Assembly (NCBI GenBank): GCA_021292105.1
Contig: CM037862.1
Location: 33,446,245 to 33,510,244, forward strand
Direction of reading: 5' to 3'
Length of the DNA: 64,000 nucleotides
DNA from: Anadara kagoshimensis
Taxonomy: Eukaryota > Mollusca > Bivalvia > Arcoida > Arcidae
Part shown: positions 28,859-61,172 of the stretch, piece after piece
How positions within the stretch are numbered: the stretch's first letter is position 1
Layout of the letters: every line of letters begins with the position of its first letter
Program-made: the position numbers and the translations under genes
Notes under the pieces: model-generated
What the model was told of the DNA's origin: nothing
The model's database searches: none
Seen by the model: the letters and a program-made list of their open reading frames with translations, nothing else

Positions 28859-29203
28859 TCAGTCCTACCTGCCTTCAATGCCACCTGTATATAAGGGACA
28901 CCTACTTATAAAGGCCAGTAGAATTGACGTATCACCGGCAATGTTTTTGTATGTTCCGACACCGGTCGCCATCACAGTACCAAAACAGCGTCACGGCAAC
29001 AAAGGACGTACTGGTGTAAGTGACGTCATAAAATGGGATAATTCAGGCAGAGTTTTTATTCTTTGTGTGTGTAATTCAAGCATGTCGGGCCTTTGTTGGA
29101 ATATTGTGGGCTTGTCCGGCGATACGTTAATTGTATCATTCATATTTTTTTAACCTGAATATAAAGACCACTTTACTTGTTCCCTTGGGTGGCTTTTATA
29201 AAC
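28859..29203. mobile_element. R3 MITE interrupted by an R4 MITE
   Basis: Left R3 part 28859-28926 (cctgccttcaatgccacctg) and right part 29129-29203 (tgttcccttgggtggctttt) surround an R4 element. The R3 core sequence gaattgtatc gives the pre-insertion site. Confidence 0.75.
28927..29128. mobile_element. R4 foldback MITE nested in R3
   Basis: Ends acgtatcaccggc and gtccggcgatacgt are inverted repeats; the interior is also largely palindromic. The flanks are aattg on both sides (28922-28926, 29129-29133), consistent with a 5-bp target duplication judged against the intact R3 core. Confidence 0.75.
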
Positions 29204-30260: not shown

Positions 30261-30267
30261 TCAACTG

Positions 30268-30462
30268 ACGTATCGCTGGCCACGCCCACAATGTTCCGAC
30301 AAAGACCTGGCATAGTTGAATGACACACAAAAAGAATGAAAAGTCGGCCTGAATTGCGCCGTCACTGACACTACTACGTCATCAGTTTCCGAGGCGTGAC
30401 GCTGCTTTGGTACCGTGATGTCGGCCTTTGTCGGAACAATGTGGGCGTGGCTGGCGATGCGT
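30268..30462. mobile_element. R4 foldback MITE
   Basis: Inverted ends acgtatcgctggccacgccc and gggcgtggctggcgatgcgt, inner match gttccgacaaag against ctttgtcggaac. Flanks caact and caatt. About 195 bp, no ORF. Confidence 0.8.
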
Positions 30463-36825: not shown

Positions 36826-37157
36826 GAGTTGAGTTGAGTAATGGTGTTTAACACCCCAGTCAATAATATTTCACTTATATGGAGACGTAGCCAGCTTTAG
36901 GCGAAGGTGCAGAAATTTTGCCTGTGCGTAGCGCTGATGCCATTATACATGGTTTTTAGCGTGTCAAGCCTACCGGGACACGGGACCTCGTTTATTTTAA
37001 GTTCCCATCCGAAAGAACCAAGGTTTTCATTTCGTAATACCGAGTGCTTTGCGAAAGAACAGTAACTACCCGCTTTTAAGTCTTGGGTCAGACCCGGTCG
37101 GGATTCGAACCCACAACCCCCACCTACAAAGCGAGCACTCTACCAACTGAGCTACCG
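36826..37157 (-). mobile_element. SINE family S1
   Basis: Reverse copy with complete head (ccaactgagctacc at the end), body and gagttgagtaatggtg tail end. Target duplication not evident. Confidence 0.82.
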
Positions 37158-38701: not shown

Positions 38702-39133
38702 AGATCCTTCCACAAAATAAGATCATTCCGTAATTTCCATAAAGAAAGTTCACCCCCTTTTTAAAATACTTTTACCATATTTTCTTAGCAATTTAGCAAT
38801 GTAAAGCAAATATCTACACAGTTTGAAATAAATTTTATAAACACTTGTCTCCCCTTAAATCTTTTCTAAAGAAAATTAGACAATATTTCCATGGAGAGAA
38901 AAATTGCTGCAAACGTTTTCTATTGTTTTTTGCTATTACAAATATATGTTTTTGATATTCATAATACCATGTCTGAATATAAATTATATTGTAAAGCTTT
39001 TGAGAAAATTACTCATAAGTATTGTCGGTAACAATTTGATACAGTCGACAGATACAGGAATAGAATTTCCCACCAAACACAAAATCAGACAAAGCAATGC
39101 CATAACCAGATTGATTAAAACATTTCATTAAGA

Positions 39134-39790
39134 GATAGAAGGTTAAAACTTACACAAATAAAGGCGAAGTTGTACAATACATTTAAGCTGAAAGTAGGTA
39201 AAACAACAACATCAAAAAGGTTACGAATGTTTGCCTTAAAGAGTTATGTTCCAGTAAGAACACATATTTTAAATAAAAGACAGAGAATGCTATGGCTTCA
39301 TTGGGCACTCGGACATCGTCAATGGTCACAGAAAAACTGGAACATTGACATATTTTCCGATGAATCAATATTTCGGTCTTATAACAACAGGCGAAATTTT
39401 AGGGTTCGACGAAGGTCTGATGAAAAGTACTTAAATCACTACATGCAGTTTACTGTGAAAACCCCTCTTCATGTCCAAGTATGGGACATACTATCAGCTA
39501 ACGGCATTGGTATATTGGAAAAGATAAAGGTAACACTTAATAGTGAATGGTACCAAAAAAACCCCAGTACTAAACGATATCTAAATACAATGTAAATGTC
39601 TTGTTTTCCCTGAAAGAGATTTTATTTTTCAACAAGATAAAGCCCCCGCACATCCGTCAAAATCAACAAGAGGTTTTTTGTTTGAGAGACAGATATCGGC
39701 CGTTTGTATGGCCGGGAAATTTACCCGATATGAATCCAACGGAAAATCTATGGAATGATTTAAAAAAAGAACGTTGCAATGGGCAATCTG
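39134..39790 (+). pseudogene. Tc1-like (DD34E) transposase pseudogene
   Basis: The reading frame runs DRRLKLTQIKAKLYNT through NKRQRMLWLHWALGHRQW to DIFSDESIF, which carries the first catalytic Asp. A stop at 39593 and a frame change follow; the next frame has FQQDKAPAHPS (second Asp, about 39645) and a further frame has WPGNLPDMNPTENLW (catalytic Glu, about 39735). The distance between second Asp and Glu is about 34, the Tc1 spacing. The N-terminal DNA-binding region is scrambled and the C-terminus is lost where R4-like sequence begins at 39811. At least two frameshifts, so not functional. Confidence 0.82.
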
Positions 39791-51400: not shown

Positions 51401-51404
51401 CTTG

Positions 51405-51668
51405 TGTAGCGGTGTAGGTAGTAGCTCAGTGGTAGAGCACTCGCCTATAGTGTGGGAGGTCCCGGGTTCGATTTCGATTCCCGGTCCGAACCTGCATTTT
51501 TTCTCTTTCCTGTTACGGTTGGTCCCAGGGTGGAACCTGGTGGTTTCGAAAAGGAAGGCAGGAATGTAGCGGTCTGGGTAACTCAGTGGTAGAGCACTCG
51601 CCTATAGTGCGGGAGGTCCCGGGTTCGATTCCCTGTCCGACCCTGCAATATTTCTTTTTCCTATTACA
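51405..51668 (+). mobile_element. Miniature LTR element with tRNA-like LTRs, copy B (primer site deleted)
   Basis: 5' LTR 51405-51516 and 3' LTR 51565-51668 both begin tgtagcggt and end in gttac(a)/attaca. Each holds a tRNA-like unit: D-arm/A-box ctcagtggtagagcactcgc and B-box gggttcgattcc, followed by a T-run. The 3' LTR is preceded by a purine tract (aaaaggaaggcaggaa). A 4-bp duplication cttg flanks the whole element (51401-51404, 51669-51672). Compared with copy A, about 40 bp after the 5' LTR, including the primer site and the last LTR base, are missing. Confidence 0.78.
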
Positions 51669-51702
51669 CTTGTTTTATAATGTTGTATCGGAAAAATTGT
51701 CT

Positions 51703-55545: not shown

Positions 55546-55950
55546 ATTTAAAATATCTCAAAATCCAAAATTCCGATTATAATTAAATTGTAATTTTAGC
55601 ATAATTATAATGAAATAATAATTTAAAGACGACAACACTTATCTGCACCCAAAATCCAAAATTCCGATCATAATGTATTTTAAGTATATTTTAAATAATA
55701 ATTTAAAGACGACAATACGTATTAGCAAATGAACTTTGAACTACCGGTTGTGAACACAAAGAGGTGTAGTTTTGTAGTGTATCCACTCCCGGAAAAAATA
55801 TCTTAAATATGATGAAACGGACTTATTTGTAGTACAAGGTGGGTAAACATTGTACATGTACATACGTAAGTCGGAGATTATAATTTTATGTAATTAATTT
55901 GATTAATATTAATTGGGAGAAAATGAATACGTAAGTAGGAGATTATTATT

Positions 55951-56265
55951 TGTAGCGGTCTGGGTAGCTCAGTGGTAGAGAACTCGCTTATAGTGCGAGA
56001 GGTTCAGGGTTCGATCCCCGGTTCGACCTTGTATTTTTCTCTTTCCTGTTACATTTGTGGGCTCGTCCGACCCTTGGAAGTAGTCGATCAACAGGTTGGT
56101 CCCAGGGTGGAACCTGGTGGGTTCGATTTAAGGGAGTTGAATCGAAAAAAGGAAGGGGGGAATGTAGCGGTCTGGGTAGGTCAGTGGTAGAGCACTCGCT
56201 TATAGTGCGGGAGGTCCCGGGTTTGATCCCCCCGTCCGACCCTGCATTTTCTCTTTCCTGTTACA
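55951..56265 (+). mobile_element. Miniature LTR element with tRNA-like LTRs, copy A (complete)
   Basis: Two direct repeats of exactly 103 bp, 55951-56053 and 56163-56265, each start TGTAGCGG and end CTGTTACA. Two bases after the 5' repeat comes tgtgggctcgtccg (56056-56069), matching the 3' end of tRNA-Pro as a primer-binding site would. Directly before the 3' repeat is a polypurine tract, gaaaaaaggaaggggggaa. The flanks are tatt on both sides (4-bp duplication). Internal region 109 bp, no ORF. Each LTR contains a tRNA-like unit of about 73 nt (A-box gtagctcagtggtagagc, B-box gttcgatcc) followed by a run of 4-5 T. The LTRs differ at roughly a tenth of positions, so the insertion is old. Size and structure match a TRIM. 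Confidence 0.8.
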
Positions 56266-56862
56266 TATTTATGCAAATCATTTGATTAACATTTAAAACG
56301 GGTATATTCTGGTTATATATGGTGGAATAATTCATACACGTGTCTTTGAAATTATTATTACGTATAAAATGATGTAAAAGATTTTTGGGTTGGTGAACAG
56401 AAAGTTCCAGTGTATGATTGAGCCAGGCAAAATAAGATACCGTGACGGAGTCTTATTATTAACTTTGACTAGATATTCTGATAACAACACAAATTCTGAT
56501 GTTGCATTTACTTTCATTATTTGACAGTATATAAATTGGGACGTCCTAGATACCCCGCCCGGAAAAATCTATCCTTATAGTAGAATGATGTTTTAAATTT
56601 TTTTTATAGGTTTTCAGTTTGTGATGATATGACTTTTTAACATGTATGGACAAACAACTTTGACCTGTCTGCTTGATCTTTCATTTATTAAATATATAGG
56701 GAGCACAGGTGCTTAATTTGTATACTCCAAGAAATATAATCGCCTATGCCATGTAATGTATTAACTTGGATCTTAACACTACCCATGTATTGGGAGCACC
56801 CACCTGTATGAATTGTGCTTGTAAAAGGTCAAGCGGGTAGATCAATGTTGTTTGCCTATAAC

Positions 56863-57594: not shown

Positions 57595-57626
57595 TATTTA
57601 TAATTTGTTTTTGTATCTCTTGAAGG

Positions 57627-59921
57627 ATGGTTACAGTGTCCATACTGATTCTGTGTTTGAGCTTTGGAAGGATTGTTAACGGATTCACTTGTGAGAGCAG
57701 CCGGACAGAATGCGAGACGTCACTGGTTATCTCCCATTACCTCACCATGTTACATCCAGTTCATAAGGCCGTCTATCCTTATAACGGAAAACTATATAAG
57801 TATGACGTCAATGATACGTCACGGGCAACGCATATTCCTATGGACGAGGTAATAACAGCTGACGGTTGGGAGGGCCAGCGACTGGTTGTTGTCGCCAATA
57901 ATACCATGCCGGGCCCTCCCTTTATACTTTATGAGGGCCAGAAGATAACCATACACGTCATCAACCATCTACAATCAGATACAGTATCTATACATTGGCA
58001 TGGTCTACCCCAGGAAGGGACACCTTACATGGATGGGGTAGGGTTCGTGTCGCAATGTCCTATCCAGCCCGGAGCATCATTTACGTACCAGTTCATAGCA
58101 AGACCTAAGGGAACATATTGGTACCATTCACATGTAGGCTCTCAAAGGAGTAAGGGTCTATTCGGAGCTTTTATAATAAAATCACGATCAGAAATGGCGG
58201 ACGATGTAGAGGACAAAATCATGTCCATTCAAGACTGGAATCATGATTGGGACGCAGATATGGACCACCAGAAAATGGTTTACGGGATTTATTATGACCG
58301 AAAGAAATACACACCTTCAAGGTCACTAGACGGGTCATATTTCAGTCTATTTAGGTTACAGTCGGGTCTGATTAACGGTAGAGGCCGCTACTACGATCCA
58401 TCGACTGGAGTACATAACGGGTCTCCGTTGGAAGTTTTTGAGGTAAAAGAAGGGAGAAAATATCGTTTTCGTATAATTGGGACCGGTGCCCTGTATCCAT
58501 TCCGTATATCTATCGATGGTCATAATATGTCGGTAATAGAATCAGATGGTTATAACGTGGAACCTATTACTGCAGACTCCATAATTATCAACCCAGGAGA
58601 ACGATATGATGTATTGATTCACACGGATAACCCTGTTGGTAATTACTGGATAAGAGGCCGGACATTGGAAAGTAACCGCAAACATATAGCTGAAGCAATA
58701 CTTCGGTACAGCGGGGCACCGGAAGCTGAGCCGGTAACTAGTCAACGGATCTGTACAGTAGACGACCGATGTCTTGTTCTAAACTGTCCATTTACATATT
58801 ATCCTGAAAATGAATACACCGATTGTCTAAGATTCGATCATTTAAAATCTGATTCGAAAAATGATCCAGCCCCGCCGTATATTGCGGGTAAATTCAAGGA
58901 ATATTTCCTAAATTTTGCTTTTCCTGGTACAACGTTCACTCCAGGTTCTGTGAATGGACGTAAATTCGAGTTATCGCCCGTTAGTGCAATATCACAACCT
59001 GGTGAAATATCAACGTCTTGTGCGGACAAAGATTGTGGTGAACAAAAACTTTGCCATTGCTCATTTACTTTGGACATTGAACATGGTGATACTGTACAAA
59101 TGATATTTATGAATATGGGAAAAGGCAAAGGTTGGGCTCACCCCATACACATGCACGGACATTCTTTTTATGTTCTCAAAATGGGATATGCTACTTATGA
59201 TAACATCACGGGTAAAATGATTGACGAAAATATGGACATAGACTGCAGAGGTGGAGTTTTTAGAAATGAAAGCTTTTGTAATGACGCAACATGGAGTGAT
59301 CCGACTTGGAAAAACGGTAACATACCGGATGTAGAATTGGAAAGAGCTCCACGAAAAGACACCATTATTGTCCCTAGCGGTGGATATGTTGTAACTAGAA
59401 TAAAGGCCGATAACCCTGGCGTTTGGATAATGCATTGTCATATAGAGTTACATAGTACGGATGGCATGTCTATGTTACTTAATGAATCGTTTGGGAAGAT
59501 TCCGTCTGTTCCTAATGGTTTCCCAACTTGCAAAAGTTTTTCACATTCTACGTCATTAGAGAAGTCAACTACAGATCCGTTAGAAGGTAAGTGTCACTTT
59601 GGTAGCTCAGTTGATAGAGTGGTTGCTTAGTGTGTGGAATGTCGGGGTTCAAAACCCTGACCGGTCTGACCAAGATCTGAAAAAAGGCGATGCTCTTTCG
59701 CCAATTACCTGGCATAAAGGTAGTTAAAATGAAAGTAACGCGTCATTCGGATGAGCTTTTCAAAACAATGTCCTGTCTTACTTTAGGCGTGACGAACTAA
59801 AGAACCTTCCCTGCACATGACCCTTAGCGAACCGCAAAAGGAAAATTATGTCATATCACATATAATTGGTGACGACCAGGTATAAGTTTAACATTCTTAA
59901 CTGAGATGTACACTCCCATTT

Positions 59922-59955
<34 letters not shown>

Positions 59956-61172
59956 GCTCATCTGATACGTTTTATATCTATTCAATAGATAGAAGCGTTT
60001 ATATTTGAGGTTTTATAAGCTGACATTTTCTTTATTCTTGATTAATGTACCACTGCCGTAGCTCAGTTGGTAGAGTGCTCGCTTCGTAAGTGGAAGGTCG
60101 TGGGTTTGAACCCCGACCGGGTCTGACCAAAGACTTGAAAGTGGGTAGTGACTGTTCTTTCGGCAAGCACCCGGCATTACGAAATGAAAGCCACGACTCT
60201 ATCGGATGGGAACTTAAAATAAACGAGGTCCCGTGTTACAGTGGGCTTTACACGATAAATAACCTTGTTGTATAACGCCATCAGCGCAACGCACAGGCAA
60301 AACAAATTTATGCACCTTCGCATATAGCTGGCGACGTCTCGATATAAGTGAAATATTATTGACTGGGACGTTAACCACCATATTACTCAACTCTTGATTA
60401 CTGTGAGAACATTTATTTCCGCTGTGTCCAAGTTTGATAGCGAGTTGTCAAACAGCTGCCATGTATACTGAGATATAGGTAACGATGAGTCGGAATGAGC
60501 TGCCGGTTCGATACCATATTCCTAGGTTAGTGTTCCACTTTTGACAGGTCTGTCCTGTATGATGTCTTCATACCATTCTCAATCTCGATTTTACGTATTG
60601 TATACGCATTTAATTTTGCGTGTATTTATTTTCGAAGTGTATAAAATTTAGACATATCCGCGTAGTTCAGTTTTCGCTATTTTTTAATGTACTATACATG
60701 ACGCATAATATTATTTTCGCTCTGTATCAATTCTCGCGCAAAACAAATGATCGCAAAATAAACGAAAATTAGCATACCGCAAAAATAAATACGTTTACAG
60801 TATGATGTGTAGCTTGTTCGACAGGAGGTATTTACCCTTCCGGGGAATCTGACCTCATTTCCTGGTCGTCGTTAAAGTATGTTTAACTACATTTGCCAGT
60901 TTCCCAAGTATTTACTTTTGTTTTATAGATCATGATTTGAGCATGGACTGGTGTGTTTGTGGTTGATACTACATAAGTAACATGTATATTTTATTTACTT
61001 TGTTATAGGTACATTTGATAGGACTACATTTTGGACAGTTGTGGGAGTACTTATAGGATTACTATTTATACAGTTCTTGATAATCTTATATGTGTGTTTC
61101 AAAACTAAGAATGGAGACGAGAAACAATATAGTGTGTCCTTTGATGGTAAAAGTAATCCATCCTTCAGCTAA
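57627..61172 (+). CDS. Laccase-type multicopper oxidase, membrane-anchored (two coding exons)
   Basis: Exons 57627-59586 and 61009-61172 join in phase 1 (AAG|GTAAGT ... TTATAG|GT) to give 707 residues. Residues 1-19 are a signal peptide (MVTVSILILCLSFGRIVNG). Three cupredoxin domains follow. Copper motifs are complete: HWHG (H123, H125), HSH (H167, H169), HPIHMHGH (H505, H508, H510, H512) and HCHIELH (H603, C604, H605, H609), with M614 as axial type-1 residue. By family it oxidises phenolic or similar substrates with reduction of O2 to water, here at the cell surface or in the secretory path. Exon 2 adds a hydrophobic helix (VVGVLIGLLFIQFLIILYV) and a basic, short tail. A pyrimidine-rich acceptor-like stretch just before the ATG suggests an untranslated 5' exon upstream. 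Physiological role (defence, pigment, shell or byssus chemistry) is not decidable. Confidence 0.93.
59571..59955 (+). mobile_element. SINE family S3 at the laccase exon 1 / intron boundary
   Basis: tRNA-like head: A-box ggtagctcagttgataga at 59600, B-box ggggttcaaaaccct, then body, tataagtttaacattcttaa and a long (AATC)n tail ending 59955. The 16 bases before the splice donor (acagatccgttagaag, 59571-59586) are also present at the matching place in the S3 copy at 40166-40181, so the SINE may begin inside the exon. Between that block and gtgtcactt the laccase copy has five extra bases that form the GTAAG donor. Confidence 0.72.
60049..60391 (+). mobile_element. SINE family S1 in the laccase intron, 13-bp TSD
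   Basis: Complete head (gtagctcagttggtagagtg, ggtcgtgggtttgaacccc), body and tail (attattgactgggacgttaa). Flanks tcttgattaatgt (60036-60048) and tcttgattactgt (60392-60404) differ at one base. Confidence 0.92.
60785..60975 (+). repeat. R2 repeat, 3' half, in the laccase intron
   Basis: tagcttgttcgacaggaggt, cccttccggggaatctgacc and gagcatggactggtgtgttt match R2. Confidence 0.6.
61009..61172 (+). CDS. Laccase exon 2 (transmembrane anchor and stop)
   Basis: The acceptor TTTACTTTGTTATAG is followed by GTFDRTTFWTVVGV, a helix of about 22 hydrophobic residues, then CFKTKNGDEKQYSVSFDGKS and NPSFS before TAA at 61170-61172. The topology would place the catalytic domains outside and about 25 residues inside. 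The final codons resemble the repeat unit of the array that follows. Confidence 0.85.

Follow-up and report, generated by a model that had tools for sequence, protein, structure and literature searches.

The 64,000-nucleotide stretch of Anadara kagoshimensis DNA analyzed here (the window) carries, at positions 55951-56265, a 315-bp sequence with the ends of an LTR retroelement and with terminal repeats that resemble a tRNA, and this raises the question of what kind of element it is and how a unit of this size could be transcribed and copied. The whole is very probably explained by a Helenus-type TRIM, a non-autonomous and non-coding element in which a tRNA-like RNA polymerase III (Pol III) unit makes up nearly the whole LTR, and which would depend on Pol III read-through, on priming by tRNA-Pro, and on a Gypsy element acting in trans. 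The element has two 103-bp LTRs whose termini read TGTAGC...GTTACA, separated by an internal region of 109 bp (Table 1). A preliminary description had proposed two direct repeats of this length with TG and CA ends, a primer site 2 nt inside the 5' repeat, a polypurine tract touching the 3' repeat, and a 4-bp duplication flanking the whole; all of these were confirmed, with a TT spacer before the primer site and TATT on both sides of the element. When up to three mismatches were allowed, the LTR-start motif was found four times in the window (0.18 expected) and the LTR-end motif also four times (0.04 expected); given these counts, far over expectation, and that the same anatomy is common to the copies in the genome, we conclude that it is not due to chance. 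None of the open frames of at least 120 aa in a program-made list overlaps the element, and no A-rich tail was seen when the sequence of this copy was read. The two LTRs are 88% identical by BLAST and 90% in a multiple alignment. The repeats had also been described as tRNA-like; ARAGORN makes a tRNA call in both LTRs, which agrees with this, but the cut-off of the Rfam tRNA model (29 bits) is reached in the 5' LTR only. In the internal region, RNAalifold predicted three hairpins from 21 of the 43 internal regions later counted, and in these no pair had changed on both sides.

Table 1. Coordinates of the element at 55951-56265 and of the second copy in the window
Feature	Position	Strand	Basis or remark
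Left target-site duplication TATT, 4 bp	55947..55950	+	equals 56266-56269
5' LTR, 103 bp, TG...CA	55951..56053	+	sequence and BLAST
tRNA-like unit of 5' LTR	55957..56029	+	ARAGORN Tyr-ATA; Rfam tRNA 32.4 bits
A box TAGCTCAGTGG, 5' LTR	55965..55975	+	sequence reading; general consensus, and TRGCY in the sections used of PMC10886601
B box GGTTCGATCCC, 5' LTR	56008..56018	+	sequence reading; general consensus, and GGTTC in the sections used of PMC10886601
T5 run, putative Pol III terminator, 5' LTR	56034..56038	+	alignment
tRNA-Pro primer-binding site	56056..56069	+	13/14 in this copy; 14/14 in commonest family form
Three predicted internal-region hairpins (56083-56100, 56102-56117, 56121-56147)	56083..56147	+	conserved, without covariation
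Polypurine tract AAAAAAGGAAGGGGGGAA, adjoining 3' LTR	56145..56162	+	sequence
3' LTR, 103 bp	56163..56265	+	A box TAGGTCAGTGG, B box GGTTTGATCCC: each one change from 5' LTR
tRNA-like unit of 3' LTR	56169..56242	+	ARAGORN only; below Rfam cut-off
T4 run in 3' LTR	56247-56250	+	alignment
Right target-site duplication TATT, 4 bp	56266..56269	+	equals 55947-55950
Second copy	51405-51668		internal deletion removed primer site
Left target-site duplication CTTG, second copy	51401..51404	+	
5' LTR of second copy, 113 bp	51405..51517	+	3- and 6-bp insertions relative to other LTRs; last base changed
Internal remnant of second copy	51518..51564	+	primer site deleted
3' LTR of second copy	51565..51668	+	
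Right target-site duplication CTTG, second copy	51669..51672	+	

The genome (1.115 Gb in 36 contigs) was searched with the 315-bp element, the LTR and the internal region; the best 40 of 3072, 1340 and 1762 first-look candidates, respectively, were scored, and they gave 45, 41 and 40 matches. Since only the best 40 candidates were scored for each query, the resulting sample is biased to copies similar to that of the window. The 90 loci obtained, together with the window, were chained into 64 distinct elements, 61 of which are bounded by LTRs on both sides or consist of a solo LTR; 49 of these have complete ends, and they were reduced to 45 insertions by clustering their flanks and keeping the best member of each cluster. 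The counts of LTR motifs given below are based on 94 LTRs picked for near-complete alignment, which start with TG in 92 cases and end with CA in 93. The pattern formed by the LTR end, TT and the primer site was counted at 116 places in the genome as an exact match, and at none when the pattern was reversed.

Of the first 14 nt of the primer site in the window copy, 13 agree with the complement of the host tRNA-Pro, and of the four nt that follow none does; the host tRNA-Pro genes gave 21 matches in the genome, four of which were read to predict the site. In its commonest form in the family, TGGGGGCTCGTCCG, the site directly follows LTR-TT and matches the host tRNA-Pro over all 14 nt, again diverging in the four that follow. 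The single change of the window copy is common to its two segmental relatives on contig C6, described below, and to the copy L024. Among 43 internal regions, the site is exact over 14 nt in 16 and has at most two mismatches in 37 (shuffles, 0 of 8600); the polypurine tract GGAAGGGAGGAA is present in 30, with close variants in most of the others. A caution had been raised that gtccgaccc, which is part of the primer site, also occurs in the LTR, so that part of the match could reflect a duplication. The repeated word is real: 11 nt are common to the 3' LTR and the internal region, and a shared word of at least 11 nt appeared in only 8 of 2000 composition-resampled pairs, so it is unlikely to result from composition alone. 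Nonetheless, the upstream portion of this site (family form, TGGGGGCTC; window copy, TGTGGGCTC) is absent from both LTRs of the window element, and given that these eight or nine bases are missing from the LTR and yet match the host tRNA-Pro, the primer site stands. A further primer-like match, at position 29105 of the window, was set aside; it lies in the left arm of an inverted repeat (29095-29133 and 30262-30300) with 39-bp arms that are 82% complementary and 1.1 kb apart.

The promoter-like features of the LTR were analyzed using box patterns of our own definition. The A box (TRGYNNARY...G) was found in 78 of the 94 LTRs, the B box (GGTTCGANNC) in 65, and both in 54. At non-CpG sites the variation was 0.028 in the boxes and 0.044 in the rest of the unit (permutation p 0.036), a modest difference obtained from copies that are related to each other. 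The tRNA-like unit did not fold better than its shuffled versions in three of the four units evaluated, and for this reason it is better regarded as promoter-like than as a tRNA. Directly after the unit, starting at LTR position 79-87, a run of five or more T was observed in 78 of the 94 LTRs; a looser count, anywhere past position 70, gave 86, and in 50 of the 94 the maximum length is exactly T5. TATA-like motifs and the signals AATAAA/ATTAAA were found in none of the 94 LTRs, and 38 of the 43 internal regions carry no T-run above three. From these features we infer that the element is transcribed by Pol III; however, the T-run of the 5' LTR should stop this polymerase before the primer site, and therefore a full-length RNA made by Pol III requires read-through. 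Pol III would start at the tRNA-like unit, approximately 6 nt into the 5' LTR, and would sometimes pass the T5-T7 run of this LTR, cross the interior of about 109 nt, and stop at the run of the 3' LTR. The predicted RNA would have a U3 of ~6 nt, an R of ~80 nt that corresponds to the tRNA-like unit, and a U5 of ~15 nt; tRNA-Pro would prime the minus strand, the first jump would take place via R, and the purine tract would prime the plus strand. As a tentative proposal, to which we give somewhat less than even weight, the tRNA-like unit would be R itself, between the short U3 (~6 nt) and U5 (~15 nt), the 5' run of T5-T7 being read through and the 3' run acting as the end, so that an abundant tRNA-like RNA of ~80 nt would accompany a rare genomic RNA of ~300 nt, with the length of the run tuned between both needs.

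A different origin of the genomic RNA would be transcription by Pol II from an outside or cryptic promoter, the tRNA-like unit being a passenger that came from a captured SINE. The T-run, of at least five residues in at least 78 of the 94 LTRs, would tend to halt Pol III before the primer site, and this agrees with a Pol II transcript, as does the folding that is no better than that of shuffles in three of four units. Nonetheless, only about 6 bp of the LTR lie upstream of the tRNA-like unit, not one of the 94 LTRs carries a TATA-like or poly(A) motif, and the boxes are somewhat better conserved than the rest of the unit; hence we consider transcription by Pol II improbable, and Pol III read-through is retained as the preferred reading.

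The target-site duplications bear on the nature of the element itself. Perfect 4-bp duplications flank 31 of the 45 sampled insertions with complete ends, as compared with 22 of 1980 in a control in which flanks were cross-paired, and a 5-bp match of the flanks was observed in none of the 45. By type, perfect duplications were present in 25 of 35 two-LTR copies, in both three-LTR arrays, and in four of the eight solo LTRs. Three of the four solo LTRs scored as lacking a duplication turned out not to be true solos, as judged from their surroundings: L045 is preceded by a purine tract, in L090 a primer site follows the LTR, and L047, split in chaining, is really a two-LTR copy flanked by a perfect duplication; the fourth, L053, matches at three of four bases. 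Among the 14 insertions without a perfect duplication, L018, L044 and L045 are immediately preceded by a purine tract and resemble what is left of larger arrays, and L019, L024, L053, L069 and L081 match at three of the four positions. L090 (866-1100, reverse strand) consists of a Helenus LTR and primer site followed by AT-rich sequence unlike the internal region, and could be either a truncated copy or a member of a related family with a different interior. Thus the search proposed in the preliminary description, with the LTR and the full element, yielded the many copies, the 4-bp duplications, the solo LTRs and the conserved primer site and purine tract that had been named as support. At the level of sequence, these dispersed copies show LTR ends, 4-bp duplications, solo LTRs, a tRNA-Pro primer site and a purine tract, with no long open frame, and they support the original view that this is a miniature LTR element which is non-coding and whose LTR resembles a tRNA.

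LINE-mobilized SINEs produce long, variable duplications. The tRNA-like units could be ordinary SINEs, or two SINEs that landed side by side, given that they are tRNA-like heads with A and B boxes and that the window contains other tRNA-headed repeats, at 37095 and 60056; nonetheless, we regard this as very improbable, and a tRNA-derived SINE with an A-rich or LINE-like tail and long variable duplications was rejected, since the window copy has no A-rich tail and the insertions have instead TG...CA ends, perfect 4-bp duplications in 31 of 45 cases, and an interior with a primer site and a purine tract. A tandem duplication of genuine tRNA genes with a spacer between them would agree with the tRNA-Tyr (ATA) call of ARAGORN in both LTRs, but this reading is hardly credible and was also rejected, because the normal anticodon of tRNA-Tyr is GTA, Rfam gives a marginal score (32.4 bits versus 74-77 for the best-scoring tRNA matches of the genome), and the copies are dispersed with 4-bp duplications and LTR ends.

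The preliminary description stated that no case of this kind was known to it. This does not hold, given that TRIMs with tRNA-like LTRs were published as Helenus from fungi, plants and animals (Kojima 2024, PMC10886601); among the matches listed in a search of open-licence PMC papers, this was the only one in which such LTRs were reported for TRIMs. According to the sections of that paper used here, 51 Helenus families occur in pteriomorph bivalves, with the ark clam Tegillarca granosa among the hosts; animal Helenus elements have 4-bp duplications; the reported lengths of Helenus are 311-1263 bp; the primers of bivalve families include tRNA-Pro; and the boxes are described by TRGCY and YGG for box A and by GGTTC for box B. 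The element has every defining feature of Helenus that was tested, a placement that is based on described features and not on comparison with consensus sequences, and it is therefore a further, well-supported instance of an already published kind. Like Helenus, it has a tRNA-like LTR with A and B boxes, a primer site and a purine tract between the LTRs, no coding capacity, 4-bp duplications and solo LTRs; tandem arrays and a tRNA-Pro primer are likewise reported in the same sections, for a zebrafish family and for some bivalve families, respectively. It differs in that its 315 bp are near the lower end of the range reported there and in that its host is an arcid other than T. granosa. Transcription of Helenus by Pol III is, in those sections, also a proposal and unproven, and the word terminator appears once in the main text, about Cassandra. 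What is added here is the T5-T7 run that follows the unit in at least 78 of the 94 LTRs and the absence of TATA-like and poly(A) motifs from all of them, so that the puzzle of transcription becomes concrete: a terminator-like run lies between the promoter and the primer site. The analysis also provides an independent check, in a single genome, of the little-studied class of TRIMs whose LTR contains a Pol III promoter, and indicates that automatic tRNA annotation of such genomes may call these LTRs tRNA-Tyr genes, as ARAGORN did in this case.

Other miniature elements show partial similarities. The plant element Cassandra also carries a Pol III unit in its LTR and, according to the sections used of PMC7215508, has a conserved terminator and tandem arrays; its unit is derived from 5S rRNA, in contrast with the tRNA-like unit of the clam element, and the part used of PMC10886601 gives a length of 18 bp for its terminal RNA repeat, as compared with the R of ~80 nt predicted here. 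Ajax, a TRIM of nemerteans with a partial 5S rRNA in the LTR, belongs to the same proposed class, TRIMp3, but is 5S-derived, has 5-bp duplications, and is 421 or 434 bp long. The bivalve element biv-TRIM is likewise of the miniature LTR type, has a purine tract, and also occurs as solo repeats and in tandem arrays; as described in the portion of PMC6934838 considered here, it differs in its 202-218-bp repeats, its internal domain of 77-80 bp and the lack of an unambiguous primer site, and the first part of the Results of that paper mentions no tRNA-like unit in the repeats.

For animal Helenus elements, mobilization by Gypsy (Ty3) elements has been proposed, as stated in the sections used of PMC10886601 (Kojima 2024). 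A Gypsy element with the same tRNA-Pro primer and CA-TT spacing would supply capsid, reverse transcriptase and integrase in trans. Sixteen other places in the genome have CA-NN followed by the full 18-nt tRNA-Pro site, with a TT spacer in 15. The three of these loci that were read have LTR-like ends, GTGACA, and an AATAAA in the 124 bases that precede the site; their similarity to the element is confined to the junction (23 bp, 91%) and to 8-nt words. A 600-base piece located ~3 kb downstream of one of them gave weak matches similar to the integrase C-terminal region, below the Pfam cut-offs, in one of its three frame pieces; the other two matched no family, and the integrase-like piece matched no solved structure. 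No autonomous copy with the same interior was found among the 40 scored internal matches; 30 of these were taken as loci, and each internal region seen there adjoins at least one Helenus LTR. Since no internal region was found outside Helenus LTRs, a Gypsy partner rests on the primer site, the spacer and the LTR end, and the candidate loci fit mobilization by Gypsy without being a proof of it.

The window contains a second copy, which lost its primer site through an internal deletion and has a duplication of its own (Table 1). The duplication of the first insertion and most of its flanks (86-96% identity over the aligned stretches) are common to two other loci of contig C6, and judging from these alignments a single old insertion in this contig has given rise to three segmental duplicates, the window copy among them. 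One of the two relatives is a three-LTR array whose middle LTR is a hybrid, with a 3'-type start followed by 5'-type sequence, as expected from unequal crossing-over between LTRs; after insertion, recombination between LTRs would lose or add units, giving rise to solo LTRs and tandem arrays. In 28 two-LTR copies the identity between the paired LTRs is 88-99%; with 90% in the same alignment the window element is an old copy, and some of its relatives look young. In the left flank of L006 and L013 (positions 1-1416), local tandem repeats with a spacing of ~72 bp were observed beside the insertion.

Several other features were noted in the window. Two tRNA-headed repeats, at 37095-37157 (minus strand) and 60056-60120 (plus strand), have a downstream body that is similar by eye and unlike the LTR element, and they are probably copies of one SINE family. 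A remnant of a Tc1/Tc3-like transposase (HTH_Tnp_Tc3_2, just under the Pfam cut-off) is present at 39119-39595. Approximately 1.4 kb from the element, a single open frame at 57624-59630 encodes a multicopper oxidase (laccase) of 668 aa with all three Cu-oxidase domains, whose best match is a Tegillarca granosa protein with 91% identity over 464 residues.
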